DNA of 64,000 nucleotides from Vibrio navarrensis (GTDB lineage Bacteria; Pseudomonadota; Gammaproteobacteria; Enterobacterales; Vibrionaceae). The notes beneath the pieces are model-generated. The model ran no database searches and was not told the DNA's origin. It saw only the letters and a program-made list of their open reading frames with translations. Below are positions 24,479 to 55,714 of the stretch, in pieces. Every line of letters begins with the position of its first letter. Position 1 is the stretch's first letter. The translations under genes and the position numbers were made by a program. The stretch lies in contig NZ_CP065217.1 of NCBI RefSeq assembly GCF_015767675.1, forward strand, positions 186,001 through 250,000. The letters run 5' to 3'.

Positions 24479-24480
24479 GC

Positions 24481-25191: not shown

Positions 25192-25219
25192 CTTATTATT
25201 ACGTTTCAGGAAATAGTCA

Positions 25220-27055: not shown

Positions 27056-27065
27056 AAGATAAGTT

Positions 27066-28987: not shown

Positions 28988-29027
28988 CTTGGATATTTAA
29001 ATTGCAGGTTCTATGCCCTTGCTCTTG

Positions 29028-29060
29028 TCTAGGGCCTAGGACCTAGAAATCTAGGACCTA
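29028..29060. repeat. Short heptamer-type repeat between rmlB and rmlA
   Basis: 'TCTAGGGCCTAGGACCTAG' followed by 'AAATCTAGGACCTA': four or so CTAGG/CCTAG units. It is preceded by 'GCAGGTTCTATGCCCTTGCT', which resembles the larger arrays' linker. It lies inside an operon. Confidence 0.75.
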
Positions 29061-29066
29061 TTTTCA

Positions 29067-30829: not shown

Positions 30830-30830
30830 T

Positions 30831-31388
30831 ATGAAAGTGGTTGATACTAAGATCCCTGAAGTGAAAATTATTGAGCCTTCTGTTTTTGGTGATGAGCGTG
30901 GTTTTTTCATGGAAACGTGGAATCAGAAGCAATTTGAAGAGCTTGTAACAGGAAAAAACACCCGATTTGTACAAGATAATCACTCAAAGTCAAAAAAAGG
31001 CATTCTGCGAGGTCTGCATTATCAGACGCAAAACACCCAGGGCAAACTAGTGCGTGTGGTTTCTGGTGAAGTGTTTGATGTAGCGGTGGATATTCGGATA
31101 AACTCACCAACATTTGGTCAGTGGGTAGGAACTTACCTCTCTGCAGAAAACAAACGTCAACTTTGGATCCCAGAGGGCTTTGCCCACGGTTTTTATGTAA
31201 CCAGCGATGAAGCTGAATTTGTGTATAAATGCACCGACTACTACAATCCTCAGGCAGAACAGTGCATCTCATGGAATGATCCGGATATCGGCATCGATTG
31301 GCCATTAGAACACGCAGGAGAGCCAGTATTGTCTGGTAAAGATGCCTCTGCTAGCTTTTTTCCCCAAGCGATATTGTTATCAATCTAG
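30831..31388 (+). CDS. rmlC: dTDP-4-dehydrorhamnose 3,5-epimerase
   Basis: 185 residues, cupin fold. 'SVFGDERGFFMETWNQKQFE', 'QDNHSKSKKGILRGLHYQ' (catalytic His), 'GEVFDVAVDIRINSPTFGQW', 'LWIPEGFAHGFYVTSDEAEF' and 'KCTDYYNPQAEQCISWND' are all conserved. It epimerises C3 and C5 before RmlD. The following 120 bp to the next gene show no clear terminator. Confidence 0.96.
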   Translation: MKVVDTKIPEVKIIEPSVFGDERGFFMETWNQKQFEELVTGKNTRFVQDNHSKSKKGILRGLHYQTQNTQGKLVRVVSGEVFDVAVDIRINSPTFGQWVGTYLSAENKRQLWIPEGFAHGFYVTSDEAEFVYKCTDYYNPQAEQCISWNDPDIGIDWPLEHAGEPVLSGKDASASFFPQAILLSI

Positions 31389-31508
31389 CCTTACGATGGT
31401 TTGAATAATTAATTATCTTTATATGGTTGATAGATTGAGTTTGCCTGTGGTTTCCGTTGGCATTTTATGACTTAGCGGTAATGAACAGAGTAATGGATAA
31501 ACATTAAA

Positions 31509-31928
31509 ATGAAAAATATATCAGTGCTTAATTTTCCTATCAAAGGTGATGAAAGAGGTTCCTTGATTGCTTTAGAGCAAGGGGTAGATGTTCCTTTTGA
31601 TATCAAGCGTATTTACTATATTTTTGGTACTAAACTAGGCGTTTCTCGTGGTTACCATGCGCATTACAACCTTGAACAGATGGTAATTTGCCTTAAAGGT
31701 AGCGTGACATTTCGACTCGACAATGGTGTTAAACAAGAGACGAAAACCTTATCTTCACCAGATGAAGGTCTGCATATGAAAGGTCTGATATGGCGTGAAA
31801 TGCATAATTTTTCAGAAGATTGTGTGCTGATGGTTATAGCGAGTGAGCTTTACGATGAAGCGGATTATATCCGTGATTATGAAATGTTTAAGCAGGAGGC
31901 GAATCGTGCTAATTCATCCTCTCAGTGA
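31509..31928 (+). CDS. dTDP-4-oxo-6-deoxyglucose 3,4-ketoisomerase (FdtA/QdtA type)
   Basis: 139 residues, a small cupin of the WxcM-like/FdtA family: '[17 protein letters not shown]', '[20 protein letters not shown]' (active-site His pair), '[15 protein letters not shown]' and '[20 protein letters not shown]'. It isomerises the RmlB product to the 3-keto sugar. FdtA and QdtA differ in C4 stereochemistry of the product (D-fucose versus D-quinovose series), which I cannot decide by eye. It overlaps the acetyltransferase gene by 23 bp. Confidence 0.9.
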
Positions 31929-32376
31929 TGTTGCCTCTTCTAATATAGGAGAGGGGACGTCCATATGGCAATTCGCGGTCGTGCTAGCTGGTGCAAAAAT
32001 TGGTCGAGACTGTAATATTTGTGCGCACACGTTTATCGAAAATGACGTAGTACTGGGCGATCGAGTTACAGTGAAATGCGGAGTTTATCTTTGGGATGGG
32101 ATTGAAATAGAAAATGATGTATTTATTGGTCCCTCTGCCGTATTCACTAATGACAAATTTCCTCGCTCAAAAGAATGGGTTAGTGAATACCCTAAAACAA
32201 AAATAATGTCAGGCGCTTCAATTGGAGCGAATGCGACAATCCTACCAGGTCTTACGATTGGCAAATATGCCATGATCGGAGCGGGCAGTATCGTGACTCA
32301 CTCCGTTCCCGATCGTGCAGTGGTTATGGGCAGTCCGGCAAAAATAGTTCGTTACATAGAGAAAAAGAATGATTAA
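31906..32376 (+). CDS. dTDP-3-amino-3,6-dideoxyhexose N-acetyltransferase (FdtC/QdtC type)
   Basis: 156 residues. I place the start at the GTG at 31906 because an AGGAGG Shine-Dalgarno lies six bases upstream and relatives begin '(M)LIHPLSDV'. It is a left-handed beta-helix hexapeptide-repeat acetyltransferase ('[20 protein letters not shown]', '[20 protein letters not shown]', '[20 protein letters not shown]', '[12 protein letters not shown]'). It is expected to N-acetylate the 3-amino group made by the following aminotransferase. Overlaps on both sides show a tight three-gene unit. Confidence 0.88.
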
Positions 32377-33472
32377 TTTTTTAGAGCTAAGACGCTTAAA
32401 CGCTCAGTACGAAGAGCAATTAAAGCAGGCATGCGTGCGAGTTATTGAGTCGGGTTGGTATATTCTCGGCAAAGAAACCGCACAATTTGAACAGGAATTT
32501 GCGGACTATTGTGGTGTGAAGCATTGTATTGGTGTTGCTAACGGCCTAGATGCACTAACACTCACTTTAAAAGCATGGCGAGAGCTAGGTAAAGTCTGCA
32601 AGGGCGATGAAGTCATTGTTCCGGGGAACACTTACATTGCTTCGGTGTTAGCGATTACTGAGGCAGAACTAACGCCAGTATTTGTCGAACCCGATGCACA
32701 GACTTATAACCTTTGTCCAAAAGCCATTGAAGCGGCCATTACTGAAAAAACCAAAGTTATTTTGCCCGTGCATTTGTATGGTCAGCTCACTGATATGCCA
32801 GCAGTTATGGATCTGGCCGCTAGATACGATTTACTTGTGCTTGAGGATAGCGCTCAATCACATGGTGCGATCTTAGCCGGCAAAAAGTCAGGGGCTTGGG
32901 GAGATGCCTCTGGTTTTAGCTTCTACCCAGGTAAAAACTTAGGAGCTTTAGGTGACGGTGGTGCAATTACCACGAATGATGACGAGTTAGCCGTAACGCT
33001 GCGTGCATTACGTAATTACGGTTCACATGTTAAATACCAAAACTTATACCAAGGTTTAAATAGTCGACTTGATGAAATGCAATCGGCGCTGCTCTCCGTC
33101 AAATTGCGCTATTTACCGGAGCAAACAAAGGCGCGTCAAGAATTGGCCGATTACTACTTGAGAGAGATCTCCAATCCATTAATCGGACTGCCTTGTGTTG
33201 CTAACAAAGAAGCTCATGTTTGGCATCTGTTTGTCGTTCGTTGTAAGCACCGAGACGCGCTGGCTAAGCACCTCTCTGACCAAGGTATTCAGACTCAAGT
33301 TCATTATCCGATAGCGCCCCATAAGCAGCAAGCGTACAGCGAGTTTAACCACCTCAGTTTGCCTCTCACGGAACAGCTGCAGAATGAAGTCTTGTCATTG
33401 CCAATGTCTCCGTATTTAAATGAGAATGAACGCGCACATGTCGTCAATGCCGTCAACTCTTTTAAGGTCTAA
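32369..33472 (+). CDS. dTDP-3-oxo-sugar aminotransferase (FdtB/QdtB type, DegT/DnrJ/EryC1/StrS)
   Basis: 367 residues, PLP-dependent. '[20 protein letters not shown]' and '[20 protein letters not shown]' are the cofactor-phosphate region, '[20 protein letters not shown]' holds the PLP-contacting Asp, and '[20 protein letters not shown]' holds the Schiff-base Lys. It transfers an amino group from glutamate to C3 of the keto sugar. With the isomerase and acetyltransferase and shared RmlA/RmlB, this completes a path to dTDP-Fuc3NAc or dTDP-Qui3NAc. The enzyme choice of C4 epimer is unresolved. Confidence 0.92.
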
Positions 33473-33477
33473 GAATA

Positions 33478-34407
33478 ATGCAAAATAATGTTAAAGTATT
33501 AGAAGACGTCGTTTACGTCTTCTTTTGCTACAAACAATCAATTTATTTAGATCAAACATTACCCTCCGCGTTGAACCAAACGGTATGGCCAAGTCAGTTA
33601 TTGATTTTGGATGACTGCTCGCCAGATGATAGCCACGAGAAGATTTTAGGCATCTTAGAATCTGCCCCCAAGGGGTTAAAAATTGACTACCGTCATAATG
33701 AAAAAAATATTGGTTTAGTCAGTCAAATCAATTCATTACGTGGTCGATACAAGAGTAAGTTGCTCATTGTACAGGCGGGAGATGATATTGCCTTGCCATA
33801 CCGGATTGAAGAAACCTATGAAGCTTGGATTAAAAATGGCAAACCGAGTTTGATCATAGGAAGTTATGATGTCATTTCAGAACAGGGTGAAATTGTCACT
33901 CCCTTTGAGTTGATTAATCCTAATAGAAAACCTTACACATTAAAGAATATCATCAATAGAAAATGTATTGTTGATGGGTGTTGTGCTGCTTTCACGTCAG
34001 ATGTCATTGATGAATTTGAGCCTTATCGTAAAGACATAATCAATGAAGACAGGATTAATGTACTGCGCGCTTTTTTACTCAATGGCATCCATTACGAACA
34101 TAAAAAGTGGATCCAATATCGGCTTGGTGGTATTTCAACTTTTGCGACCGAAACGCGAGAGCAAAAATATCAAAACACCGTGATTAATGCGCAGCGTGAA
34201 CGACAAGACCTGAGCATGAACCTACTCGATGCTCAAAGAAAAAATGCTAATGATGTTGTAGCGGCTATTAAAAAAAGAATATTAGCTGCTGAATTTATGG
34301 CTAATGTTCCTTTTACGCATTCTAAATTGTATTTATCGATATTCGGCTATTTAGTAAAGACGGGTAACTACAAAGTGGCATTAAAAGTACTTAGACGTCT
34401 AAAGTGA
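33478..34407 (+). CDS. Glycosyltransferase family 2
   Basis: 309 residues, GT-A fold: 'VYVFFCYKQSIYLDQTLPSA', 'PSQLLILDDCSPDDSHEKIL', then 'SKLLIVQAGDDIALPYRIEE' in place of the usual DxD segment. 'DIINEDRINVLRAFLLNGIH' likely contains the catalytic ED. It directly follows the 3-acetamido-sugar genes by 5 bp, so it may transfer that sugar. It marks the start of the clearly AT-rich part of the locus. Confidence 0.82.
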   Translation: MQNNVKVLEDVVYVFFCYKQSIYLDQTLPSALNQTVWPSQLLILDDCSPDDSHEKILGILESAPKGLKIDYRHNEKNIGLVSQINSLRGRYKSKLLIVQAGDDIALPYRIEETYEAWIKNGKPSLIIGSYDVISEQGEIVTPFELINPNRKPYTLKNIINRKCIVDGCCAAFTSDVIDEFEPYRKDIINEDRINVLRAFLLNGIHYEHKKWIQYRLGGISTFATETREQKYQNTVINAQRERQDLSMNLLDAQRKNANDVVAAIKKRILAAEFMANVPFTHSKLYLSIFGYLVKTGNYKVALKVLRRLK

Positions 34408-34455
34408 ACTTTAGTATATTTCTGGAAAAGTAAAATTAATATTATTTGGTGCCTT

Positions 34456-35628
34456 TTGAAAAAAATAAGCTTGATGGAAATTATAGATTTTTTAAGCATA
34501 TATAAAAAATACATATTTGGTATTTATAAGTATGATCTTTACAAGATAAATCTATTTTATGAAATCGATTCAAATGTTAGAAAAAACATACAGATCGCTA
34601 ATAGAAAAAAAGTGAGTGTCTATTCTCCTGGAATGCAAGTTCCGCTTACTGTTGAGGCTCCGGCTGTTACTCTTTCAGAGTGGAGAAATGTTGAGATCTT
34701 TGCATCAAGTAATGCAATAATTGAAAATGGAATGGTTTATATACAAAAATTCTCGAATTTGGCGCAGGATTATGAAGATTACACTACAGGATTGATCAAA
34801 GCCCACAGTCAAAGTCTTGCTATAATCAAGAAAACCCAAAAGACAAAAGAAATTGATATTGCATTAAGTCTCTTATCAAATGGAGACTTTAATTATTATC
34901 ATTTTATTATAGAAGTCTTACCCAAGTTATATGAGTTTATAGATAATCAAAGATATTTAACAAATAATATAATAATAAGTAGATGCTGTTTCGATTCATC
35001 ATCAATAAGAGAGTTACTACTCTCAATTAGCAGAAAGCATAGTTTAAATCTCATTCCTGTTGAAAGTAATGAAAGAATTAAAGTATCTAAACTGTACTCA
35101 ATTTCAAACATTAACTGCACACTATATAATAGAAAGAAAGGAGTGATGGATACATCTGACTGCTATATAAGGAACAACACTATAGAAAGACTAGTGAATT
35201 CTATTCTATCGGTTGATAAAAATCGCCAAAGCAATCGTCGTAAAATATTCTTGGCAAGATCCGAATCTAGAGTAAGAAAGTATAACCAAAAAGAAGTAAT
35301 AAATTTGGTTGAAAAATACGGATTTGAAGTCGTTTATCCTGAGAATTTAACTATATATAAGCAGGCTGAGTTATTCAATAGTGCTCTAGTGATACTAGGC
35401 GCTTCTGGAGCAGCATGGACGAATGTGATTTTCTGTCGTCCGGGTACAAAATTGATATCTTGGCTGCCTTTCGGATTTGAGAATTTTCCAACATTCTCTA
35501 CATTAGCCAGATTCGCTGGCAATACCCTAGAATTAATTCCTATTAAGTCTGTCACTTGCTCTGATATACATAGTGACTATATTATCGATATCGACATTCT
35601 CGATAAGTGCCTTTCATTAATAGAGTAA
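34456..35628 (+). CDS. Glycosyltransferase family 61 protein
   Basis: 390 residues, very AT-rich. The C-terminal half has the GT61 (DUF563) pattern 'RKIFLARSESRVRKYNQKEV', 'YGFEVVYPENLTIYKQAELF', 'ALVILGASGAAWTNVIFCRP' (the G-xx-GAA-x-TN core) and 'LISWLPFGFENFPTFSTLAR'. GT61 includes xylosyl- and GlcNAc-transferases and bacterial capsule enzymes; the donor here is unknown. The TTG at 34456 is the longest start, ATG at 34474 is an alternative, and neither has a good ribosome-binding site. It converges with the minus-strand gene at 35637, 8 bp away. Confidence 0.8.
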   Translation: MKKISLMEIIDFLSIYKKYIFGIYKYDLYKINLFYEIDSNVRKNIQIANRKKVSVYSPGMQVPLTVEAPAVTLSEWRNVEIFASSNAIIENGMVYIQKFSNLAQDYEDYTTGLIKAHSQSLAIIKKTQKTKEIDIALSLLSNGDFNYYHFIIEVLPKLYEFIDNQRYLTNNIIISRCCFDSSSIRELLLSISRKHSLNLIPVESNERIKVSKLYSISNINCTLYNRKKGVMDTSDCYIRNNTIERLVNSILSVDKNRQSNRRKIFLARSESRVRKYNQKEVINLVEKYGFEVVYPENLTIYKQAELFNSALVILGASGAAWTNVIFCRPGTKLISWLPFGFENFPTFSTLARFAGNTLELIPIKSVTCSDIHSDYIIDIDILDKCLSLIE

Positions 35629-35636
35629 GGGTAGGG

Positions 35637-36605
35637 TTATTTAAAAGAGTGAAGTTGTCTAGTGCGCTTTTTTATAGAAAGGATTAATGAGCAAAGTAAT
35701 CCTAAAATTAAAGCTGGTAAAAGCGTAAAAGCTCTACTACCAATCGATAGCAAGATAGCGTCCTTTTCTGAAACGCCTAACTGTGTTAAAAGAAACAAGA
35801 TACCAAGCTCAGTTGCACCAATACCTGATGGCATTAAAGATAAAGCACCAATGATTAAGCCAGAGCAATAAATACTTATCAGCATTGTACTAGATATATC
35901 TACCTCTAAATAATTTGCAAAAACAACCAACACCAATCCCTGAAATATCCATGCCGTTGCTGTTAAATATAAAGGAGTGAATAGTTTTTTTACTTTTAAG
36001 TTATCCTTTATGTTCTGAAATAAAACCCGTAGATTGTTTTTTGATTTAAAGAATGGAATTCTTTCCACATTATAGATACTAATATAAAAAAAAGATAGTA
36101 TGATAATAAAAAATAAGGGGAGAGCTTGCATATCTAAACTGAATAATACTAAGCTAGCTAATAATCCGACTACAAATAAATCACAGGTTCTTTCTGAAAT
36201 AAAGCAGGCTGTAGTATATGTCAATGGTATGCCTAGAGGTTTTAAATAAATACCTCTGACTAGTTCTCCGGTTTTACCTGGAGTTATTGTAAACGCAAAG
36301 CCAGATAAATAAACTAAAGAGTGGAAGTATTTTGATTGATATTCCTGTTTATACCGTAAAATAAAATATAGCCATCGTATCGTTCTAAGTAAATAACTTG
36401 AAAGTGAAAGTGCTACTGCCAAGAAAAATTCAAGGTAAGACGTAAAAAAAATATTCTCGATTGAAAATGACGCAGAGTCCTCAAGAACGGTATTAAAACC
36501 ATAAATAACAAATACAATAGCCAGTAATAAATAGATTCTCTTGATGTGAGCGGCATAAGATTTTGGAAACATAAAAATCATGTCCAAAGGAGTGTTATGG
36601 ACCAA
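35637..36605 (-). CDS. UPF0104/LPG_synthase_TM membrane protein
   Basis: 322 residues with about eight transmembrane helices ('IYLLLAIVFVIYGFNTVLED', 'LEFFLAVALSLSSYLLRTIR'). 'AFTITPGKTGELVRGIYLKP' and 'LSLMPSGIGATELGILFLLT' are the two signature segments of the flippase-like LPG_synthase_TM (PF03706) family, related to the membrane half of MprF. Members are proposed to move lipids or lipid-linked sugars. It overlaps the PAP2-like gene by 28 bp, so it is co-translated with the phosphatase and the phosphoribosyltransferase upstream. A role in flipping or handling the polyprenyl-phosphate sugar is an inference from this context. Confidence 0.82.
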   Translation of the reverse strand: MVHNTPLDMIFMFPKSYAAHIKRIYLLLAIVFVIYGFNTVLEDSASFSIENIFFTSYLEFFLAVALSLSSYLLRTIRWLYFILRYKQEYQSKYFHSLVYLSGFAFTITPGKTGELVRGIYLKPLGIPLTYTTACFISERTCDLFVVGLLASLVLFSLDMQALPLFFIIILSFFYISIYNVERIPFFKSKNNLRVLFQNIKDNLKVKKLFTPLYLTATAWIFQGLVLVVFANYLEVDISSTMLISIYCSGLIIGALSLMPSGIGATELGILFLLTQLGVSEKDAILLSIGSRAFTLLPALILGLLCSLILSIKKRTRQLHSFK

Positions 36606-36994
36606 GCTGAGAAAATTCCGACTAAAATACCAGAAAAGATCTCAATTCGTGTATGTCCCATTTTTTCTCTTAATCGTATGTGTGCGTGGTTGTCTTGATT
36701 TAATTTGTTGATCGCTTGAGCATGCAGCCCTACTTTCTGTCTCAAGCTATTTGCATCTAGAGTGACAATAAAGGCAAGGGCTATAGCAACAACTAATGCA
36801 GGGTTATGAAAACCTTCTTTAAATGCGATAATAGCTGCAGCGCTGGTGACAATACTGGTATGATTACTCGGTAGACCACCATAGCCTATTAAATCGAATG
36901 CTAAACGCTTTTCTTTAGCTGAATTTATGACAAATTTTGTACAACCAGCGAGAAGCCATGCCCAAAACGGTGTAATAAGATAGCTTAGATCCAT
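36578..36994 (-). CDS. Divergent PAP2-family phosphatase (DUF212)
   Basis: 138 residues, hydrophobic. 'IGYGGLPSNHTSIVTSAAAI' (PSxHT, like the PAP2 PSGH motif) and 'REKMGHTRIEIFSGILVGIF' (GHTxxEVxxG) identify the divergent PAP2/DUF212 family. In mycobacteria a PAP2-type gene next to the UbiA-type phosphoribosyltransferase is the proposed phosphatase for decaprenyl-phosphoryl-ribose-5-phosphate. This gene sits in the same position relative to its UbiA partner (17-bp gap), which supports the same role by inference. Confidence 0.85.
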   Translation of the reverse strand: MDLSYLITPFWAWLLAGCTKFVINSAKEKRLAFDLIGYGGLPSNHTSIVTSAAAIIAFKEGFHNPALVVAIALAFIVTLDANSLRQKVGLHAQAINKLNQDNHAHIRLREKMGHTRIEIFSGILVGIFSAWSITLLWT

Positions 36995-37011
36995 AGTTAA
37001 TTACTCTCAAA

Positions 37012-37863
37012 CTAAATCATTGTATACGCACAGGCGATAATCCAACCACATATTGTAAGCTGTAATTGATTATCTGAAAATAAGGCATCGGTAGGAGATT
37101 CACCTTCGTCTTTTGACTCAACCACAAACCAGTAACGATAGATGCCAAAGATGACAAAGGGGATAGTGAAAACAAGTTGGGGTTTATCGGATAATATATA
37201 AAGGCTATAGAAAAGCAGAGCACAAGTCGCTGACATCTCGGCGTATTTATCTATAAGAGCAAGAGAGTACTGTTTCAATACATTTCTAGCACTATCACCG
37301 CTTTTAACTAGTTCTTGTCTTCTTTTTATTGCCGCTAGATAAAGTGCGAGCGACAAAGTCGTAATAAACATCCATGAAGAAAGAGGTACATCAATAGCGA
37401 TAGCGCCTGCATAAACGCGAAATACAAACCCCAAAGCAATAGTAAAAATATCTAACACAGGTTGATGTTTCAGATAAAACGTATAAGCGATATTGAGTAG
37501 TAAGTAAGCAAAAATGATTGTCAATAATTGAAAATTGACAAATCCAGACATAAATACAGAGGTGTACAATAGTACCATCAAAATAAGTGCTTGCGTCTTA
37601 GTCACTTCACCACAAGCCAATGGTCGCTGGAAACGCTTGACCGGATGGCGTCGATCGCTTTCAATATCGTTGTAATCGTTTAAGACATAAGTCGCTGATG
37701 AAGCAAGAGAAAAAAAAGTAAACGCAAGTAAGGCATCTACCACTGATGTAATGGAATTGAAAGTTCCTGAGAAAACAAGAGGAGCAAGAACGAATGTGTT
37801 CTTCACCCACTGTTTAGGACGCATCAATCTAATGATAGCGAGGATAGAGATTTTTGGTTTCAT
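37012..37863 (-). CDS. UbiA-type polyprenyl-phosphate phosphoribosyltransferase (DPPR-synthase-like)
   Basis: 283 residues with about eight membrane helices. 'LMRPKQWVKNTFVLAPLVFS' and 'YVLNDYNDIESDRRHPVKRF', 'RPLACGEV' match the decaprenyl-phosphate 5-phosphoribosyltransferase subgroup of the UbiA superfamily (mycobacterial Rv3806c). The NDxxDxxxD motif is the Mg-PRPP site. It would join PRPP to a polyprenyl phosphate at the inner membrane. It is the first gene of a three-gene minus-strand unit and is divergent, 46 bp, from GtrA-DprE1-DprE2-GT-C genes, so the two arms very likely share one regulatory gap and one pathway. Confidence 0.9.
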   Translation of the reverse strand: MKPKISILAIIRLMRPKQWVKNTFVLAPLVFSGTFNSITSVVDALLAFTFFSLASSATYVLNDYNDIESDRRHPVKRFQRPLACGEVTKTQALILMVLLYTSVFMSGFVNFQLLTIIFAYLLLNIAYTFYLKHQPVLDIFTIALGFVFRVYAGAIAIDVPLSSWMFITTLSLALYLAAIKRRQELVKSGDSARNVLKQYSLALIDKYAEMSATCALLFYSLYILSDKPQLVFTIPFVIFGIYRYWFVVESKDEGESPTDALFSDNQLQLTICGWIIACAYTMI

Positions 37864-37909
37864 TTTAGCTATGATCAGTGACTGTAAAATTTATTGGGAA
37901 TACGTGTGA

Positions 37910-38323
37910 ATGAAGATTCTTGTACTTTATATTATTTTTGCCTGCTTGGCGACATTTGCCAACCTTTTAGCACAAGAAATATCATATCAGCTGTATCATG
38001 GAATTTATCGGCTTGCACACAGTATGTTCTGGGGTACGCTAGTAGGATTAGTCATTAAATATGCTCTTGATAAAAAGTACATATTCAATTTTAAAGTTGA
38101 TAGTCATGCTCAAGACGCAAAAATGTTCATGTTATACAGTACGATGGGTGTTTTGACAACGTTGATTTTTTGGCTAGCTGAATGGGCATTTTATCATTGG
38201 TTTGAAACCAAAGAGATGCGCTACTTAGGGGCTGTTCTCGGCTTGTCCATTGGATACATGACTAAATATTACTTAGACAAAAAATTCGTTTTTGTAAGGT
38301 ATCAAAATGAAACAACTAACTAG
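37910..38323 (+). CDS. GtrA family membrane protein
   Basis: 137 residues with four transmembrane helices ('LVLYIIFACLATFANLLAQE', 'HSMFWGTLVGLVIKYALDKK', 'MLYSTMGVLTTLIFWLAEWA', 'GAVLGLSIGYMTKYYLDKKF'). The repeated 'K-Y-x-LDKKxxF' ends are typical of GtrA proteins, thought to help move polyprenyl-phosphate-linked sugars across the membrane or to anchor the transferases. Mycobacterial Rv3789, next to dprE1, is also a GtrA protein. It overlaps the DprE1-like gene by 17 bp. Confidence 0.88.
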   Translation: MKILVLYIIFACLATFANLLAQEISYQLYHGIYRLAHSMFWGTLVGLVIKYALDKKYIFNFKVDSHAQDAKMFMLYSTMGVLTTLIFWLAEWAFYHWFETKEMRYLGAVLGLSIGYMTKYYLDKKFVFVRYQNETTN

Positions 38324-39590
38324 TTGGGGTAATTACCCAAAGATTAATGCTTGCAGTCATTACATTGAAAGACTCCAAACATGTGTGGATGCATCTCCTC
38401 TTATAGCAAGAGGTTTGGGGCGTAGTTATGGCGATAGTGCTTTAGGCGATAACGTAGTACTTACTGAAAGGCTAAACAGATTTTCTTCATTTTCCGATGA
38501 TGGGATTTTGACATGTGATGCAGGTGTAACATTAGCTGAGATACTAGAAGTTTTCGTGCCCAAAGGCTGGTTCCTGCCGGTTACTCCCGGAACTAAATTT
38601 GTTACAGTCGGTGGTGCAATAGCAAGTGATGTTCATGGAAAAAATCACCACACTGAGGGAAGTTTTTCTGATCATGTCGAGTCAATATTATTATCTATAG
38701 GCGATGAATTGATTTATTGTGATAAATACTCACATGCAGACCTTTTTCACGCCACCTGCGGTGGGATGGGTTTAACTGGAATTATTATTGAAGCATCATT
38801 TAAGCTTAAAAAAATAGAAAGTGCATATATTGAACAAAAAATAATTAGAGCGGAGAATCTACGCACTATATTGAGTTTGTTCGAAGAACATCAAGATGCA
38901 ACATATTCAGTTGCTTGGATAGATTGTTTAGCAACGGGGAAATCATTAGGCCGCTCGATACTTATGCTCGGTGAACATGCTTCAAAAGGGAACTTGTCTG
39001 TTCATTCTCAGAGTCCATTAACAATACCATTTAATTTTCCATCTTTTTCGCTCAATAAGTATTCTATTCAAGCGTTTAATTTCGTTTATTACCATAGGCT
39101 TCTTAAAAATGAAGTGGAAAATACTATTCACTATGATCCATTTTTCTATCCCTTAGATGGTATTAATAATTGGAATCGGATGTATGGAAAAAGAGGCTTT
39201 ACGCAATACCAATTTGTTATCCCATATAGTGCAGGTTTAGAAGGTCTAACTAGTATTTTAAAAAAAATAGCAGAATCGAAACAAGGATCCTTCCTAGCTG
39301 TGTTGAAAGTTTTTGGTGATGGAAATAAAAACCCACTTTCATTTCCAATGAAAGGATACACTCTAGCCTTAGATTTTAAAATAGATGATAACATTTTCTC
39401 CATACTCGATGAGTTTGATATTATTGTACGAGAGTTTGGAGGTAGATTGTATCTTTCAAAAGATGTTCGCATGAGCGAAGAGATGTTTAAGTCTAGTTAT
39501 CCTCGTTGGGAAGAGTTTCAATCAGTCAGAGAAAAATATAATTGTAAAAATAATTATATTTCACTTCAATCAATAAGAATTGGGTTATAA
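38307..39590 (+). CDS. FAD-dependent decaprenylphosphoryl-ribose 2'-oxidase, DprE1-like
   Basis: 427 residues. The N-terminal FAD-binding domain contains 'ARGLGRSYGDSALGDNVVLT', 'FLPVTPGTKFVTVGGAIASD' and 'VHGKNHHTEGSFSDHVESIL', almost word for word the DprE1 pattern. The C-terminal domain has 'KRGFTQYQFVIPYSAGLEGL' and 'EFGGRLYLSKDVRMSEEMF', with the active-site Lys of DprE1 (Lys418 in M. tuberculosis). The cysteine attacked by benzothiazinones (Cys387) aligns to Ala in 'GYTLALDFKI'. It would oxidise the 2'-OH of polyprenyl-P-ribose to a keto intermediate, which the next gene's product reduces. Four bases separate the two. Confidence 0.93.
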   Translation: MKQLTSWGNYPKINACSHYIERLQTCVDASPLIARGLGRSYGDSALGDNVVLTERLNRFSSFSDDGILTCDAGVTLAEILEVFVPKGWFLPVTPGTKFVTVGGAIASDVHGKNHHTEGSFSDHVESILLSIGDELIYCDKYSHADLFHATCGGMGLTGIIIEASFKLKKIESAYIEQKIIRAENLRTILSLFEEHQDATYSVAWIDCLATGKSLGRSILMLGEHASKGNLSVHSQSPLTIPFNFPSFSLNKYSIQAFNFVYYHRLLKNEVENTIHYDPFFYPLDGINNWNRMYGKRGFTQYQFVIPYSAGLEGLTSILKKIAESKQGSFLAVLKVFGDGNKNPLSFPMKGYTLALDFKIDDNIFSILDEFDIIVREFGGRLYLSKDVRMSEEMFKSSYPRWEEFQSVREKYNCKNNYISLQSIRIGL

Positions 39591-39593
39591 ATA

Positions 39594-40328
39594 ATGAATG
39601 TAGTCATTTTTGGTGCGACATCTGCTATTGCAGAAGAAATTGCAAAGTGTTATGTCTCAAAAGCAGAACATATTATATTGCTCGCGAGAAATGAAGATAA
39701 GCTTGAAATGATAGCCAATGATCTTAAGGTTAGAGGAGCAAATGCGGTTAGTACATTATATTTCTCTGCATTAGAATACACTCAACATATTGAATTGGTA
39801 AATGAAGTATTTAGCATGGCTGATAAAATAGATGTTTGTGTGATCGCACATGGTAGTCTACCTAGCCAAGAAGCTTGTCAAAATGATGTTGAAATAACTT
39901 TAAAGGAAATTGCAATTAATGGAACGAGTGTCATTTCGTTGCTAACGCTTTTAGCGAATAGGTTTGAAAAGCAAGGTTCCGGAAGTATTGTCGTGATATC
40001 TAGTGTTGCAGGTGACAGGGGGCGTCAATCGAATTATGTGTATGGTGCTGCAAAAGGAATGGTATCTACATTTCTTCAGGGGTTGGCTCAGCGTTTGAGT
40101 AAAAATGATGTACATATACTTGATATTAAACCTGGTTTTGTTGATACGCCTATGACGGAATTATTCGTAAAAGGTATATTGTGGTCCAAACCAAGTCAAG
40201 TTGCTAAAACTATCGTCAAACGTATAGATTGTCGTTCTAGACGAAACTATGTTCCTGGTTTTTGGCAACTAATTATGTTTGTTATTAAAGTCATCCCACA
40301 GAGTATTTTTAATAAGATTAAATTATGA
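39594..40328 (+). CDS. Decaprenylphosphoryl-2-keto-ribose reductase, DprE2-like SDR
   Basis: 244 residues, short-chain dehydrogenase. 'MNVVIFGATSAIAEEIAKCY' is the nucleotide-binding site, 'SIVVISSVAGDRGRQSNYVY' and 'GAAKGMVSTFLQGLAQRL' give the Ser and YxxxK catalytic residues in the same wording as DprE2, and 'HILDIKPGFVDTPMTELFVK' follows. With DprE1 it completes epimerisation of polyprenyl-P-ribose to polyprenyl-P-D-arabinofuranose. It overlaps the GT-C gene by 4 bp (ATGA). Confidence 0.92.
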   Translation: MNVVIFGATSAIAEEIAKCYVSKAEHIILLARNEDKLEMIANDLKVRGANAVSTLYFSALEYTQHIELVNEVFSMADKIDVCVIAHGSLPSQEACQNDVEITLKEIAINGTSVISLLTLLANRFEKQGSGSIVVISSVAGDRGRQSNYVYGAAKGMVSTFLQGLAQRLSKNDVHILDIKPGFVDTPMTELFVKGILWSKPSQVAKTIVKRIDCRSRRNYVPGFWQLIMFVIKVIPQSIFNKIKL

Positions 40329-41947
40329 TACATAAGAACTTAACTAAGTATTTTTTCTACTTTTTACCAATTTTTCTTTTGATTAGTTTTGGCCGATATG
40401 GTTTTGAAGATGCGGATACCGGTTTCTTAATGGGCTTAGGCTGGCGTTTTGCGAATGGTGAAATACCCTATGTCGATTTTTCATATGTTCGGCCATTTAT
40501 GTCGATTGTGCATGCCGCTTTGATAGTGAAAGTTTTTCCAGATTTTTCTCAGTTGTTTACGTTGAAAATAGTACCTTTACTACAATTATTTTTTTCTGTT
40601 TGGTTAACTCTTCTTGCCTTAGAGAAAAAATATCTTTTAAATGTTACTGATATACTTAAATATAGAGTGGCTATAGCCGGATATATAATTGCAACGTCAT
40701 CTTTAAGTTATTATATGATTTGGCATACGATAGATGGAATTTTCTATCAATCGATTGGTTTGTATTTCATTTCTCAAATACGTAGTAATCAAGAAATTTG
40801 CTCTTTATTTTTTGCATCTTTCTTCCTTTTCCTCGGAGTTTTATGTAAACAAAACTTCTTGGCAACTTTTTTTCTTTCATTCTTATTTGTTTTTATTGTT
40901 CATGGTCTAAAAACTACAGCAAAATACATTGGATTAAATCTGTTCATCATTTCTTCTGCCTTTTTGTTTATAAAATTTCTAGGTTTCGGTGATGTTTACT
41001 TCGATGCTATTTCGTCAAAGACAAGCATTTCCGACATATATTCATCAAGTATTTACCCATATATAAAGTCAGCGTCATCGGATAATGCGATTATTTTTAT
41101 ATCATTGTCATTGTTGCTTTTTTTTGTAGATAAGAAGTTTGGCCTAAGAATTTTTTATATTTCATTCTTTATTGTTCCTGTGTTTATGCTTTTAGAGCTG
41201 TATAAAGATCTTTCGTTTAGCCAAAGTATAAATTTTCGCAGTACGAAATTAGATTGGATTATTCCATTTTATGCATTTCTTTACATAATTTACGATTCTT
41301 TTTTAAGAAAGAAATTAAAAGATAATGCATTGCTTATATTATTTTTTTCTCTTTCATGGTCTTCTAGTGTAAGTTGGGGTGCTAATACACCTACACTTTA
41401 TTTTACTCCTATTTTGGTCTCCCTAGTGTACTTTTATAGCACAAAGAGTGGGAAATTTAATAAACATTTAATTGCCGCAATCCAGATTAGTGCTTTTATT
41501 TTTATGCTACAAATGTTGTCACCATATAGAGACTCTTTTGTTTCTAAGCTTAATTATAATATGGGTGATATTTACCCAAAGGCACAGTATATTAAAACGG
41601 ATTTTGAAACATATGAGAAACATAAAGAATATGTATCATTACTTAAAGTATATGATGTGAGTCAGTTAACAGTTTTACCATCAATGCCTTTATCTCATTA
41701 CCTTGTCGATGCTAAGAATCCATATATTATTGACTGGGCAATGGATGTTGAATCAACTATGCCACCTATTGAAATGATTGAAGAGCTTAAAAGTCGAGTG
41801 CAGTATGTTTTTATTGAAACTCGATCTATCGGTAATCCAATAGGTGAGCCAGGAAGCAAGTTTTATTCAACGGTGAGTGATTATGTAATTAATCACTACG
41901 AGCCAGTTGAAAAGAAAAATTATTTCCATGTCTATAAATTAAATTAA
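40325..41947 (+). CDS. GT-C membrane glycosyltransferase, putative arabinofuranosyltransferase
   Basis: 540 residues with about eleven hydrophobic segments, very AT-rich. 'GRYGFEDADTGFLMGLGWRF', then 'ANGEIPYVDFSYVRPFMSIV' place an acidic pair (EDAD) in the first periplasmic loop, as in GT39/ArnT-like enzymes that use polyprenyl-phosphate sugars as donors. The C-terminal 100 residues look soluble and periplasmic ('LSHYLVDAKNPYIIDWAMDV', 'YVFIETRSIGNPIGEPGSKF'). It is translationally coupled to DprE2, so polyprenyl-P-arabinose is the most economical donor. The acceptor (O-polysaccharide, core or protein) is unknown. An AAATT pentamer repeat overlaps the stop codon. Confidence 0.75.
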   Translation: MIHKNLTKYFFYFLPIFLLISFGRYGFEDADTGFLMGLGWRFANGEIPYVDFSYVRPFMSIVHAALIVKVFPDFSQLFTLKIVPLLQLFFSVWLTLLALEKKYLLNVTDILKYRVAIAGYIIATSSLSYYMIWHTIDGIFYQSIGLYFISQIRSNQEICSLFFASFFLFLGVLCKQNFLATFFLSFLFVFIVHGLKTTAKYIGLNLFIISSAFLFIKFLGFGDVYFDAISSKTSISDIYSSSIYPYIKSASSDNAIIFISLSLLLFFVDKKFGLRIFYISFFIVPVFMLLELYKDLSFSQSINFRSTKLDWIIPFYAFLYIIYDSFLRKKLKDNALLILFFSLSWSSSVSWGANTPTLYFTPILVSLVYFYSTKSGKFNKHLIAAIQISAFIFMLQMLSPYRDSFVSKLNYNMGDIYPKAQYIKTDFETYEKHKEYVSLLKVYDVSQLTVLPSMPLSHYLVDAKNPYIIDWAMDVESTMPPIEMIEELKSRVQYVFIETRSIGNPIGEPGSKFYSTVSDYVINHYEPVEKKNYFHVYKLN

Positions 41948-41996
41948 ATTAAATTAAATGGTAGGCATAGCTCTAAGGAAATATAGGTCTACCATT

Positions 41997-43256
41997 TTAT
42001 AATTCGTGTAGAGTACGAACTATTGCTCCATAATTTTTCATCATGAATATTTTAACTCGATTAGCTATTTCAGCTTTCACATTGGTGTTTCTAATTGTAA
42101 TAAGAATTGCTTTTCCAAGCTCGTTCTGATTTCCAATCTTTTCTATAGCCTCAATTTTCATTAAGCTTTCGGTTACTTCCTTAAAATTAAAGAAACTCGG
42201 CCCGGTAATGACTGGCACTCCCAACGCTGCTGGCTCTAACACATTATGCCCGCCGACTTTGTTGCCAACTAGGCTTCCGCCCATAAAACAGACGTCAGCT
42301 GCGCCTAGCAAGACCAACATCTCTCCCATGGTGTCGCCTAGGTAAACTTGAGTCGAGTCGGTAACGTTTTGCTGTTGCGTGCGCCTTATCGTTTCAAACC
42401 CTTGTGCTTGGCACAATTCGAACACCGAATCGAAACGCTCAGGGTGGCGGGGAACTAATATCAAGAGTGCATTGGGATGCGTTTCTAACACTTGTCTATG
42501 AGCATCTAGCACTTGTTCATCTTCACCTTTATGGGTGCTCGCGGCTATCCAGATAGGTCTGTCTTGGCCAAGCTGAGCGCGCAATTCAGCGCCTTTACGT
42601 TTGATCTCATCAGAGATATGGATATCGAATTTTATCGAACCCGTGACGCTGAGCTTCTCTGTCGCGACCCCAAGCTTGGCGAAACGATCCGCGTCTGCTT
42701 GGGATTGGCAAAGGACTTTACTCAAACATGGATGGAGCAGGTTAAATAGCGGCTGCACTTTGGCGTAATTTCGCTGAGATTTTTCTGATAAACGAGCATT
42801 GACCACGATAATCGGAATATTGGCTTTATGCACGGTGGCTAAGGTGTTGGGCCACAGCTCGGTTTCGATGATCAGCATCTTGGCGGGATTGACCGCTTTA
42901 AGAAAACCGCGCACTGCAAAGGCAAAATCGATCGGCATATAGCGATGTTCGACCAAATCACCCAGTTTTGCGATTTGTTCTGCGCCGGTACTGGTTGTGG
43001 TGGTCACGACAATCCGTTGCTCTGGGGTTTGCGCTTTGATGGCTTTGATGAGCGGAATCGCCGCGAGGCTTTCACCGACAGAGACGGCATGGATCCACAG
43101 TGGTCTCGTTTGCCCATCAAGTTTAGGCGTGATACCGAAATGCTCTTTCCAGCGCGCCCCAAACTTTGGTTTATTCGCTTTGCTGCGATACAAGCCGAAC
43201 AGTAGCAAAGGTGCGGCTAGAGCCAGAATCAGCGTATAGAGCAGCCGCACTAACAT
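41997..43256 (-). CDS. waaA: 3-deoxy-D-manno-octulosonic acid transferase
   Basis: 419 residues. There is one N-terminal hydrophobic segment, then the KdtA pattern: 'LWIHAVSVGESLAAIPLIKA' with the catalytic Glu, 'RYMPIDFAFAVRGFLKAVNP', 'LIIETELWPNTLATVHKANI', 'NARLSEKSQRNYAKV', 'AASTHKGEDEQVLDAHRQVL' and 'FMGGSLVGNKVGGHNVLEPA' (CMP-Kdo site). It attaches Kdo to lipid IVA at the inner membrane. It is the last gene of lpxM-GT25-waaF-waaA on the minus strand and overlaps waaF by 7 bp. The kdkA kinase in this window would phosphorylate its product. Confidence 0.96.
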   Translation of the reverse strand: MLVRLLYTLILALAAPLLLFGLYRSKANKPKFGARWKEHFGITPKLDGQTRPLWIHAVSVGESLAAIPLIKAIKAQTPEQRIVVTTTTSTGAEQIAKLGDLVEHRYMPIDFAFAVRGFLKAVNPAKMLIIETELWPNTLATVHKANIPIIVVNARLSEKSQRNYAKVQPLFNLLHPCLSKVLCQSQADADRFAKLGVATEKLSVTGSIKFDIHISDEIKRKGAELRAQLGQDRPIWIAASTHKGEDEQVLDAHRQVLETHPNALLILVPRHPERFDSVFELCQAQGFETIRRTQQQNVTDSTQVYLGDTMGEMLVLLGAADVCFMGGSLVGNKVGGHNVLEPAALGVPVITGPSFFNFKEVTESLMKIEAIEKIGNQNELGKAILITIRNTNVKAEIANRVKIFMMKNYGAIVRTLHEL

Positions 43257-44305
43257 TCGCTCACCGCAATGGCATCCAATTTACGAATGCTGTCTAACAC
43301 TTGCTTGGGTGTCAGTTCCGACAAACATTTGAGATGCTGATACTGGCACTCACGTTTAAAGCAGGGGCGACATTCAATGTCGGTATGCACAATCTCGACC
43401 TTTTCGGCCAGCGGTGGAGTGTATTTCGGCGAGGTCGAGCCATACACCGCCACGACATTACAACCAACCGCCGCGGCGACGTGCATCAGGCCTGAATCGT
43501 TACTCACTACCGTGTGACAAGCCGCCAGCAGATCCACCGCTTCGATAAGGCTGGTTTGCCCGGCTAACACTTGGATTTGAGCATGATACTCGCTCGGCAC
43601 ACGCTGTTTAATGCTTTTACATGTGTCGAGATCTTTTTGCGAGCCAAACAGCCATACTTGATGGCCTTGCTGGCACATGACATGAGCGACTTCAGCATAA
43701 TGGTTTTCTGGCCATTTTTTGGCCGGGCCAAACTCCGCCCCAGGACACAGGCCAATTACTTTGCTTTGGGTCGAAAGCGCAAACTTCGCCAGCGTTTGTT
43801 GCTGCGCATCGACATCGATGGACAGCTTAGGACGAGGCAGCGTTTCCAGGCCGCCGAGCGAGGCGGAATCGACCATTTGCGCTCGCGGATGAGCCAGCGC
43901 CACGTAGCGCTCGACCATATACTGGAAGGCTTTTTTATTAGGGCGTAAATCATTGAGCAGGCCATAACGCAGCTCACCGCGCCAGCCCGTGCGCAGAGGA
44001 ATATTGGCAAACCAAGGAATGAGCGCCGATTTGGCCGAGTTAGGCAAAACGTAGGCGTGATCGTACTTAAACTCGCGTAGCGACTTACCGATTTCACGAC
44101 GGCCCAGCAAGTTAAACTCCCCGTGGCCAAGCGGCATTTCAATTGCTCGGTTCACTTCGGGCATGCGTTCTAAGATAGGTTTACACCAGCCTGGCGCCAT
44201 CACATCAATCAGCGCATCAGGGTGTTGCTGCTTAAGTGTCGTGTAAAGTGACTGCGACATCACCATATCGCCCACCCATGAAGGGCCAATAACTAAGATC
44301 TTCAT
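43250..44305 (-). CDS. waaF: ADP-heptose:LPS heptosyltransferase II
   Basis: 351 residues, GT9. 'MKILVIGPSWVGDMVMSQSL' is the WaaF start, with 'HAYVLPNSAKSALIPWFANI', 'TGWRGELRYGLLNDLRPNKK', 'VIGLCPGAEFGPAKKWPENH' and 'HTVVSNDSGLMHVAAAVGCN', 'VVAVYGSTSPKYTPPLAEK'. It adds the second heptose of the inner core from ADP-heptose, made by HldD (46377). Its ATG overlaps the stop of the GT25 gene. Confidence 0.96.
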   Translation of the reverse strand: MKILVIGPSWVGDMVMSQSLYTTLKQQHPDALIDVMAPGWCKPILERMPEVNRAIEMPLGHGEFNLLGRREIGKSLREFKYDHAYVLPNSAKSALIPWFANIPLRTGWRGELRYGLLNDLRPNKKAFQYMVERYVALAHPRAQMVDSASLGGLETLPRPKLSIDVDAQQQTLAKFALSTQSKVIGLCPGAEFGPAKKWPENHYAEVAHVMCQQGHQVWLFGSQKDLDTCKSIKQRVPSEYHAQIQVLAGQTSLIEAVDLLAACHTVVSNDSGLMHVAAAVGCNVVAVYGSTSPKYTPPLAEKVEIVHTDIECRPCFKRECQYQHLKCLSELTPKQVLDSIRKLDAIAVSEC

Positions 44306-45024
44306 GATTTGTTTTTCCAGGATATGAACCGCAAAATCGATTCGTAAGTTCTAAAAAACTCCGCATAGATTTTATTGAACAATGTCATTTGGGATTTATC
44401 CTTTCTTTTACTACCTATAGTTGACATCACTTTCGCTCGAGAAAAGAGATCAGGATAAACGCTATAGACTTGCACGCCGTGTCTCCATGGTTTTTCCATG
44501 TAATCATCTACGGGTTCAAGAAAAGTTTGGGCGTTTTTCACGAAGAGCTCTGCGGTAGAGGGAGATATTATATAGGCAGTGGTACCACAAGTTCCAGATG
44601 AATAGCCTCCGAGATCATAACCATTGACCAAAGAAATTATCTTATGGAAGGTCTGTTTTATTGTGGCAGAAAGTTTTATATAACCATAGTAATTTATCTG
44701 AGCAAATGCGGATGTAAGAACTTCTTTTATTGGCCCTACAGGGTCAACGTTATCCTCAAGAACAATAATGGCTTCATTGAGTTTGATGCAGTGTTGCCAA
44801 ACTTCATAATGACTAGCAAAACAAGCTAGTTCGTTTTCATGCATCTGATAACCTTTGCGAGCTCGAGTGATCCTCTCTCTGCTTTTTTCTGAGTGAGTAA
44901 AATTAGGTAAAGAGCCATCGACTGCATCAAAAAACTCAAAATCGACGCCTTCTTGATCAAGTAACCTTTGAACTCTTTCTCTACGCTCAATTGAGCGAGT
45001 GAGGCTTACAACGAATACTTTCAC
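44302..45024 (-). CDS. Glycosyltransferase family 25
   Basis: 240 residues from a GTG at 45024 with GGAAC seven bases upstream; an in-frame TTG four codons earlier lacks a ribosome-binding site. The GT25 pattern is 'VKVFVVSLTRSIERRERVQR', 'QEGVDFEFFDAVDG', 'ELACFASHYEVWQHCIKLNE', 'AIIVLEDNVDPVG' (the ED/DxD site) and 'GTTAYIISPSTAELFVKNAQ'. Family members are beta-1,4-galactosyltransferases of LOS (LgtB/LpsA type). It lies inside the waaF-waaA operon, so it probably extends the core. Confidence 0.9.
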   Translation of the reverse strand: MKVFVVSLTRSIERRERVQRLLDQEGVDFEFFDAVDGSLPNFTHSEKSRERITRARKGYQMHENELACFASHYEVWQHCIKLNEAIIVLEDNVDPVGPIKEVLTSAFAQINYYGYIKLSATIKQTFHKIISLVNGYDLGGYSSGTCGTTAYIISPSTAELFVKNAQTFLEPVDDYMEKPWRHGVQVYSVYPDLFSRAKVMSTIGSKRKDKSQMTLFNKIYAEFFRTYESILRFISWKNKS

Positions 45025-45134
45025 TAGTTGTTCCAATTTTAGTTAACACCTCTTTGAAAATTAATAGCTTATAAAAATAAAAAAGGTGTAAATTTGATTA
45101 TGTTATACAAGGTATTTGCACAAATTCTAGAGAT

Positions 45135-46130
45135 TCATTTGTGAAAACAATCTGGTTTCTTTAAATCTTCATTGTAGTAAGGGCTTGGCTCGTTGGGATC
45201 GGGCCGCGTACGCAGAAGTTGGAACGTCCACATGTACTGTTCTGGATAACGAGAGACTTGCTGTTCGATAAAGACGTTCATGGCTCTGGCATCTGCGTGT
45301 TCATCGCCACTTGGGAAGCCCTCCCACTCGGGAGAAATCGTGATTTCATATTTGCCAGTTTCGGTATTGAGGCGAGTAAAGGCAGCCAGTACCTTGGCTT
45401 TACTCACTTTAGCCAGTTTGCCTAAACCCGGTAAGGTGGCTTTTTGCGTAGCAAAAAAGTCGACGAACAGGCTCTGTTCACGGCCATGATCTTGGTCAGG
45501 AAGATAATAGCCGATATACCCCTCGCGCACCGATTTCATGTAAGGTTTTATTCCGGCGCTGCGCTCGTAAATGCGTCCACCAAATTGCATCCGTTGCCTG
45601 TGCATCAGCCAATCACCAACCGGGTTTTTTTGCTCTTTGACCATAGCCACCACGGGGCTGCCTTTTGAGGCGAGCAGTACTGGCAAAACATCAATCGCCC
45701 AAGTATGTGGCGTGAGTAAAATGACGTTGTGGCCCTGTTCTCGGACCGTTTGTAAATGCTCTAGACCGTTTATTGAACAGCTCTTTTCTAAATAGCGTTT
45801 GCCAAAGAGGGTGATGAGCGGAAAGTTGAGTAGAAAGACCCCTGCGGTGGTTAGGCACTCCAACAAGATGGTTTCTTTCTCATTATCGCTTTTGTCCGGA
45901 AAGCATAAGGTTAAGTTGGCCCAGATGTTGTGCACAGTACGCGGTGGGTTACTGGCAAGCTTTTTAGCGATTTTACTGGCAATCCAATATTGTAAACGGA
46001 TGGGCAGCAAAGCAATCGGCAACCCCACAATCAGGCCAAGCCATATTCCCCAATATTTAGGCGCAAGAAAACCCCACTGAAAGGTGGGGTTGTGCGCTTT
46101 AGGGTCAAAGTCGTTTCGTTCAGTTGTCAT
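45135..46130 (-). CDS. lpxM: Lipid A late acyltransferase, LpxM-like
   Basis: 331 residues. One N-terminal hydrophobic helix ('YWGIWLGLIVGLPIALLPIR'), then 'NVILLTPHTWAIDVLPVLLA' with the HX4D catalytic motif that is typical of LpxM/MsbB, and 'GYYLPDQDHGREQSLFVDFF'. It adds the last secondary acyl chain to lipid A. In V. cholerae an LpxM-related enzyme (LpxN) transfers a hydroxylated chain, so chain type is open. It is the first gene of the lpxM-GT25-waaF-waaA strand group, separated from hldD by a heptamer array. Confidence 0.87.
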   Translation of the reverse strand: MTTERNDFDPKAHNPTFQWGFLAPKYWGIWLGLIVGLPIALLPIRLQYWIASKIAKKLASNPPRTVHNIWANLTLCFPDKSDNEKETILLECLTTAGVFLLNFPLITLFGKRYLEKSCSINGLEHLQTVREQGHNVILLTPHTWAIDVLPVLLASKGSPVVAMVKEQKNPVGDWLMHRQRMQFGGRIYERSAGIKPYMKSVREGYIGYYLPDQDHGREQSLFVDFFATQKATLPGLGKLAKVSKAKVLAAFTRLNTETGKYEITISPEWEGFPSGDEHADARAMNVFIEQQVSRYPEQYMWTFQLLRTRPDPNEPSPYYNEDLKKPDCFHK

Positions 46131-46145
46131 ACTAATTTTTTAGAG

Positions 46146-46383
46146 CAGGTGATAGGAAAAGCAGGTTTCTAGGAAGAGCAGGTTCTAGGAAGAGCAGGTT
46201 CTAGGAAGAGCAGGTCCTAGGCCCTAGGAAGAGCAAAACCCAGAACCTAGAACCCAGTACCCAGTACCCAGTACCTAGAACCTAGTACCTATCAACCTAG
46301 TACCCAGAACCCAGTCCCTAGAACCTAGTCCCTAGAAACCTAGAACCTATTAACCTAGTCCCTCGCAACCTAGCCCCTAGCCC
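46146..46383. repeat. Heptamer repeat array between lpxM and hldD
   Basis: The left third repeats 'AGGTTCTAGGAAGAGC' (16-bp purine-rich unit, about four copies). The right two thirds are about 24 heptamers mixing CCTAGAA, CCCAGTA, CCTAGTC, CCTAGTA and CCCAGAA. The array runs into the 3' end of hldD: the hldD stop codon TAG (minus strand) is inside a CCTAG unit. Complementary units on the two sides could pair. Confidence 0.93.
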
Positions 46384-50830: not shown

Positions 50831-50847
50831 TTGGCAGGGACAGAACT

Positions 50848-55699: not shown

Positions 55700-55714
55700 A
55701 AGGCGAAAAGCGGG

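Follow-up and report, generated by a model that had tools for sequence, protein, structure and literature searches.

Described systems related to the cassette

A pentofuranose pathway of Gram-negative bacteria has been described by Kelly et al. 2024, in which candidate arabinofuranose (Araf)-glycan systems carry homologues of DprE1 and DprE2 (PMC11127046), and in Pseudomonas paraeruginosa the genes PSPA7_6245-6251, together with TfpW, are known for the modification of pilin with D-Araf (PMC12369383, PMC11841053); statements on these systems follow the cited passages of the respective papers. Here, we compare with them a seven-gene cassette at positions 35637-41947 of a 64,000-nucleotide stretch of the Vibrio navarrensis genome (contig NZ_CP065217.1, positions 186,001 to 250,000; hereafter, the window). 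The cassette probably makes polyprenyl-phosphate-linked D-Araf and adds it, at the periplasmic face of the inner membrane, to lipid A-core (lipo-oligosaccharide); the part of this proposal with good support is a polyprenyl-phosphate-D-Araf donor whose sugar is transferred in the periplasm.

The three-component systems of the Citrobacter youngae O1 and O2 O antigens have in common with the cassette a UbiA-type polyprenyl phosphoribose synthase, a GT-C (glycosyltransferase C-fold) transferase and, as candidates in the cassette, a phosphatase and an exporter, and in both an epimerase sets the pentose (PMC11127046). They differ in their phosphatase, a HAD-type PRP domain rather than the DUF212 candidate found here, in their exporter, the small ORF14 transporter rather than the GtrA and UPF0104 candidates, and in their setting, since the present cassette adjoins waaA in a locus where no Wzx, Wzy or ligase was recognised (PMC11127046). 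The P. paraeruginosa pilin set likewise places D-Araf donor genes in a Gram-negative bacterium; however, the TfpW gene is found with the pilin gene (PMC12369383), whereas the GT-C gene described here lies inside the cassette, in the O-locus. A Pseudomonas indica locus (L026) also unites UbiA, DUF212, GtrA, DprE1 and DprE2, and hence five of the seven types of gene in the cassette.

The cassette is predicted to share its reaction order with the mycobacterial pathway to decaprenyl-phosphoryl-D-arabinofuranose (DPA), which comprises Rv3806c, Rv3807c, DprE1, DprE2 and Rv3789, and mycobacterial enzymes are the nearest solved structures of the window's UbiA and DprE1 proteins. In contrast to that pathway, the cassette has DUF212 for PAP2, an added UPF0104 protein and, presumably, an undecaprenyl lipid; relative to the strict DPA set, a GtrA-family member is present and no phosphatase above the PAP2 cut-off is encoded.

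The novelty that the first-pass annotation of the window implied for the complete set was overstated, given the published Gram-negative systems for pilins and O antigens and the fact that, among the best 120 of 4319 UbiA relatives, proteins from many Vibrio species, with 65-83% identity, already carry the annotation decaprenyl-phosphate phosphoribosyltransferase (DPPR synthase). Gram-negative D-Araf donor sets are thus known already, and the placing in an O-locus and the DUF212 phosphatase candidate are what look like new leads. Among the matches listed from open-licence papers, none reported D-Araf or this gene set in a Vibrio O-locus, and a term search in reviews found no Vibrio D-Araf, returning one D-arabinose-containing polysaccharide whose source is not given in the passage concerned.

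Organization of the cassette

All seven open reading frames (ORFs) are intact, and the arrangement noted in the first-pass annotation, with adjacent AT-rich genes diverging around a 46-bp gap, holds, with the start of UbiA at 37863 and that of GtrA at 37910. The GT-C gene is coupled to DprE2 by the 4-bp overlap described there (start 40325, end 40328), and an alternative start of the UPF0104 gene at 36581, giving 314 residues, would create a 4-bp overlap with DUF212. The features are as follows.

35637..36605, minus strand: UPF0104/LPG_synthase_TM flippase-like protein (PF03706, TIGR00374)
36578..36994, minus strand: DUF212 (divergent PAP2) membrane protein (PF02681)
37012..37863, minus strand: UbiA-family polyprenyl-phosphate phosphoribosyltransferase, DPPR-synthase type (NF008978, 8j8j, tree and motif)
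37864..37909, no strand: divergent intergenic region of 46 bp between the UbiA and GtrA starts
37910..38323, plus strand: GtrA-family small membrane protein (NF037976, PF04138)
38307..39590, plus strand: DprE1-like FAD oxidase, FAD_binding_4 (NF053785, 4aut, conserved residues)
39594..40328, plus strand: DprE2-like keto-reductase of the short-chain dehydrogenase/reductase (SDR) family (NF053786, NF005489, Y150xxxK)
40325..41947, plus strand: GT-C-fold integral membrane transferase, putative D-arabinofuranosyltransferase (AlphaFold2 model, structural matches)
24089..47318, no strand: dgkA-to-gmhD O-locus enclosing the cassette (Kdo/WaaP-type kinase, rml, 3-amino-sugar genes, glycosyltransferases, waaA, lpxM)

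Donor synthesis: UbiA, DprE1 and DprE2

The UbiA protein exceeds the cut-off of one NCBIfam DPPR-synthase equivalog (NF008978, 212.7 bits against 207) and lies under those of two further models (NF008977, 217.6 against 234; NF008976, 166.3 against 474), while its nearest solved structure in the PDB is the DPPR synthase 8j8j (E 3.9e-40). In a tree of 44 rows, in which the cassette is represented by the window and 39 of the 75 UbiA-bearing loci examined, the strain's three other UbiA-family proteins are split from the cassette and mycobacterial enzymes (Shimodaira-Hasegawa-like approximate likelihood ratio test, SH-aLRT, 90). The motif NDxxDxxxDxxH is found in all 40 cassette rows and in the mycobacterial row, and in none of the three other proteins. 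A housekeeping identity as a ubiquinone, menaquinone or heme prenyltransferase was rejected from the family scores, the 8j8j match and the tree. The DPPR-synthase pattern reported earlier is borne out by NF008978 and 8j8j, and the grouping with unrelated prenyltransferases that had been named as speaking against it was not observed, notwithstanding the long branches considered below. By family, nearest structure and tree, the polyprenyl phosphoribose synthase component of a three-component pentofuranose system is recognised.

The DprE1-like protein matches NF053785 with 398.5 bits over residues 21-425 of 427, short of the equivalog cut-off of 500, and is best regarded as a DprE1-like homologue and not as a member of that equivalog; its nearest solved structure in the PDB is the mycobacterial DprE1 4aut (E 2e-78). 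H110, H114, Y382 and K385, which by the alignment of the 4aut search and the mycobacterial numbering would correspond to active-site residues of mycobacterial DprE1, show no variation across the alignment (90 of 90 sequences). Another aligned position presumably corresponds to the cysteine that benzothiazinones attack in the mycobacterial enzyme; unlike that enzyme, the window protein has alanine there, as do 84 of the 90 sequences (threonine in 5, serine in 1, cysteine in 0), and cysteine-bonding inhibitors should therefore not bond to it. The DprE2-like SDR scores 191.6 bits against NF053786, below its cut-off of 250, and 290.1 bits against NF005489, above its cut-off of 267, with the Y150xxxK motif present. 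The two proteins, earlier called close matches to DprE1 and DprE2, do resemble their mycobacterial namesakes but both stay below the strict NCBIfam cut-offs.

These families, the nearest structures and the UbiA tree support the route already proposed, from phosphoribosyl pyrophosphate (PRPP) through polyprenyl-phosphate-ribose to polyprenyl-phosphate-D-Araf. Following the UbiA reaction, DUF212 would remove the 5-phosphate of polyprenyl-phosphate-ribose 5-phosphate, as comparative genomics suggests, and from homology and the conserved DprE1 residues, DprE1 would then oxidise polyprenyl-phosphate-ribose at the 2' position, with DprE1 and DprE2 together inverting C2 to give D-Araf.

DUF212 as a phosphatase candidate

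The first-pass annotation called the second protein a PAP2-like phosphatase, and a phosphatase of the mycobacterial PAP2 type is not supported by the family scores: the protein belongs to DUF212 (PF02681, 105.5 bits against a cut-off of 26.5) and falls below the cut-off of PAP2 (PF01569, 18.4 against 27.2), the family to which we take the Rv3807c phosphatase to belong. PSNH and other residues are invariant across six aligned cassette DUF212 proteins, and the predicted structure is a weak model.

Occupancy of the phosphatase slot was compared over 89 loci (80 named records among the matches listed and 9 from Vibrio), of which the 14 without a UbiA match were left out. The 75 UbiA-bearing loci comprise 12 with DUF212, 14 with a fused HAD, 36 with a separate HAD and 13 with none (62 filled), and in none of the 75 do two phosphatase types occur together. 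A further scan moved L108 and L109 from none to HAD, giving 12, 14, 38 and 11 (64 filled); the eight other proteins of that scan do not fill the slot. The fused class was set by the length of the UbiA ORF, with HAD matches in all 10 of the 14 that were checked against Pfam, L110 lying below the cut-off; nine of the 36 separate HAD proteins were checked likewise and all nine are HAD, a tenth protein scanned (L083) falling outside the class and not being HAD.

Among 227 genomes of the genus, DUF212 occurs in 10, and in all 10 it adjoins a UbiA of the DPPR-synthase type; seven of these genomes, including that of the window, have DprE1 and three (G007, G094 and G190) do not. Because DUF212 adjoins UbiA even where DprE1 is missing, it tracks the first step and not epimerisation, as expected of a 5-phosphatase. 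At class level, six of 369 genomes carry DUF212, five of them (own genome included) with an adjoining UbiA, while the copy in the sixth (G351) has an internal stop and no UbiA within 20 kb.

Several points weaken the slot test and the counts. The Fisher value of the slot test, 2e-7 (0/12/50/13, from the counts before the further scan), is not a true probability since the loci are related, and for the fused HAD class alone the value is 0.11. In a quick DprE1 tree the alternation between DUF212 and HAD needs five changes, yet for DUF212 only one is required by branches with strong support. One locus (L045) owes its DUF212 score to an oversized reading frame, and in G087 and G094, both still counted, the gene is disrupted. 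Finally, DUF212 turns up outside the cassette setting in 6 of the 14 genomes used as controls, for example in Bacillus subtilis, and the family must therefore have other uses too. On balance, DUF212 is likely to act as the phosphatase in place of a PAP2 protein of the mycobacterial type, an assignment that is new as far as our searches show; no link of DUF212 to such a pathway was found among the matches listed from the open-licence papers searched.

Export and transfer

Two exporter candidates are recognised by family. The GtrA protein identified in the first pass exceeds the cut-offs of NF037976 (165.8 bits against 50) and PF04138 (30.7 against 26.1); Rv3789 is, we assume, a member of the same family, and by analogy the window protein may have an Rv3789-like role. 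The UPF0104/LPG_synthase_TM protein, likewise correctly named flippase-like, matches PF03706 (109.2 bits) and TIGR00374 (53.8 against a cut-off of 43.2) and is a candidate polyprenyl-phosphate(-sugar) flippase. Either or both would carry the lipid-linked sugar to the outer leaflet.

The product of the last gene (40325-41947) matches no family of Pfam or NCBIfam up to E 0.1, and a profile of its family gave no match to PDB sequences at E 10. Its AlphaFold2 model (mean predicted local distance difference test, pLDDT, 70.9; predicted template modelling score, pTM, 0.75) retrieved 50 listed structural matches, all of which read as GT-C-type and which include ArnT, AftB, EmbA-EmbB, EmbC, AftA and AftD. 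This predicted fold agrees with the GT-C assignment and with the periplasmic transfer suggested for the enzyme, and adds the transferase component of a three-component pentofuranose system; D-Araf would be the sugar transferred. The gene was found in only one of the 227 genus genomes, its own, and when 15 proteins at 12 cassette loci, picked for many membrane helices or for nearness to the cassette so that some may not be transferases, were compared by sequence profile, none matched that of the window protein (best E 0.14). The cassette therefore recurs beside membrane proteins unrelated to the window's GT-C protein, which we read as one fixed donor cassette combined with different transferases; that the transferase is swappable, as this suggests, is new as far as our searches show.

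Distribution of the cassette

Restriction of the set to this strain was rejected, as DprE1 occurs at 44-100% identity in 10 of the 227 genus genomes, the window's own among them; weaker matches in 23 further genomes (E <= 0.001; best G117, 37% over residues 25-205) were left uncounted. Glaciecola, Thiothrix, Kangiella and a Pseudomonas share the divergent order of UbiA against GtrA-DprE1-DprE2. Three cassette genes in all have homologues in V. parahaemolyticus, that of UPF0104 at 48%.

Genomes G007 (L122/L123) and G094 (L125) carry UbiA, DUF212 and a small SMR/EamA-type protein, which in G094 is below the Pfam cut-offs, with no DprE1 match; G007 also has an NAD-epimerase. These loci are perhaps a ribo- or xylofuranose version, recalling the Ribf/Xylf systems of Kelly et al. 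In G190 (L124), UbiA-DUF212 is accompanied by a GtrA protein, a flippase in three pieces and short ORFs for membrane proteins, which has the appearance of a decaying cassette.

The acceptor and alternative readings

In V. parahaemolyticus the O-locus is defined as running from dgkA to gmhD (PMC10272883, in the passage cited). Here a dgkA-type gene (24089-24478) and a gmhD-type epimerase gene (46377-47318) lie on either side of the cassette, which is thus within an O-locus of that type. To its left are rmlB, rmlA, rmlD, rmlC, FdtA, an acetyltransferase and an aminotransferase, followed by the GT2 and GT61 genes nearest the cassette, and to its right waaA, GT9, GT25, lpxM and gmhD; the setting between rhamnose/3-acetamido-sugar genes and waaA given in the first pass stands, except that the two glycosyltransferase genes intervene on the sugar-gene side. 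The G+C content of the block is 34.2%, against 50.2% for positions 1-20000 and 51.4% for 47000-60000, in keeping with horizontal acquisition.

No Wzx, Wzy or O-antigen ligase (WaaL) was recognised among the Pfam-scanned O-locus genes, no protein of the genome exceeds the Polysacc_synt (Wzx) cut-off, and the sole Wzy_C match of the genome is a PglL-type protein ligase. Lipid A-core is favoured as the acceptor because of the position in the O-locus and the lack of recognised Wzx, Wzy and WaaL there; D-Araf would be added to it at the periplasmic face, although this is the least certain step. The lack of these three functions in the locus, with the choice of acceptor that it suggests, is also new to the extent of our searches. 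A more specific joint reading, in which DUF212 is a polyprenyl-phosphoribose 5-phosphatase, an independent solution besides HAD and PAP2, and a new GT-C family puts D-Araf directly on lipid A-core, is put forward tentatively, as conceivable though somewhat less than probable. Such decoration of the core in the periplasm would resemble that of lipid A by ArnT and not the glycosylation of O chains or pilins, and might perhaps extend to a V. parahaemolyticus O group.

A number of observations weigh against transfer of D-Araf to lipid A-core or against the steps leading to it. In the UbiA tree the outgroup paralogues, on very long branches, join close to the group of the window (8 cassette rows and 3 paralogues form a starred set of 11), so that the rooting of the tree and the placing of the mycobacterial row are unsure. 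DprE1 and DprE2 fall short of their strict cut-offs, and in the GT-C model confidence is low for the first loop, which holds the invariant Asp31. The Wzx and WaaL searches covered one Pfam family each, and because a weak Polysacc_synt match (21 bits against a cut-off of 28.2) lies beyond the window in a locus labelled capsule-type from a reading of sequence starts, a divergent Wzx may exist there; since PglL is present, a protein-linked glycan is possible. In addition, the 20-kb stretches at the nine other Vibrio DprE1 loci contain none of waaA, dgkA, lpxM and gmhD, and the cassette by itself is therefore not tied to lipopolysaccharide.

It is unlikely, though supported by precedent for such a donor (PMC12369383, PMC11841053), that the donor is made as proposed and the GT-C enzyme arabinosylates a protein, be it type IV pilin in the manner of P. 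paraeruginosa TfpW or a PglL-type glycan. The top-ranked structural matches of the GT-C model are protein glycosyltransferases (AglB, OST and PMT), and the genome encodes PglL; however, ArnT and mycobacterial glycan arabinosyltransferases match as well, so that the fold does not discriminate between acceptors, and the gene stands in the O-locus adjoining waaA and not beside a pilin gene. Transfer to a polysaccharide chain, whether of the capsule or of a long O antigen encoded at another genomic site, is rather unlikely too: periplasmic addition to O polysaccharide is known (Kelly et al. 2024, PMC11127046), and a capsule-type locus with the weak Wzx-like match follows the window, but that locus is separate from the cassette, and with one family searched for each, neither a Wzx above its cut-off nor a WaaL-type ligase was found. 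An inactive cassette, or one making another pentofuranose through, for instance, DprE1 and DprE2 acting on another lipid-sugar, is very improbable given seven intact reading frames and the invariant DprE1 columns, even considering the sub-threshold DprE1 and DprE2 scores, the UbiA-DUF212 loci of G007 and G094 with an SMR/EamA-type protein and without DprE1, and the broken or fragmented copies in G087, G094 and G190.

Other features of the window

Adjoining gmhD, three large ORFs (47591-55699) encode a protein of 1079 residues with PKD domains, one of 689 residues without a Pfam match at E 0.001 and a subtilase of 872 residues, after which comes a YjbH-type gene (56144-58261). Further on, two adjacent, similar transposase ORFs (DUF772/DDE_Tnp_1) with near-identical first residues occupy 60226-61503 and 61673-63247 on the minus strand.

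Significance

DUF212, a family without known function in Pfam, gains a testable function through this analysis. The recurrence of the donor cassette beside different membrane proteins would provide a simple means of changing surface sugars, and D-Araf, best known from mycobacteria, is suggested to serve some Vibrio as a surface antigen. In V. parahaemolyticus, D-Araf could explain an O serogroup, provided that the homologues in that species sit in its O-locus.

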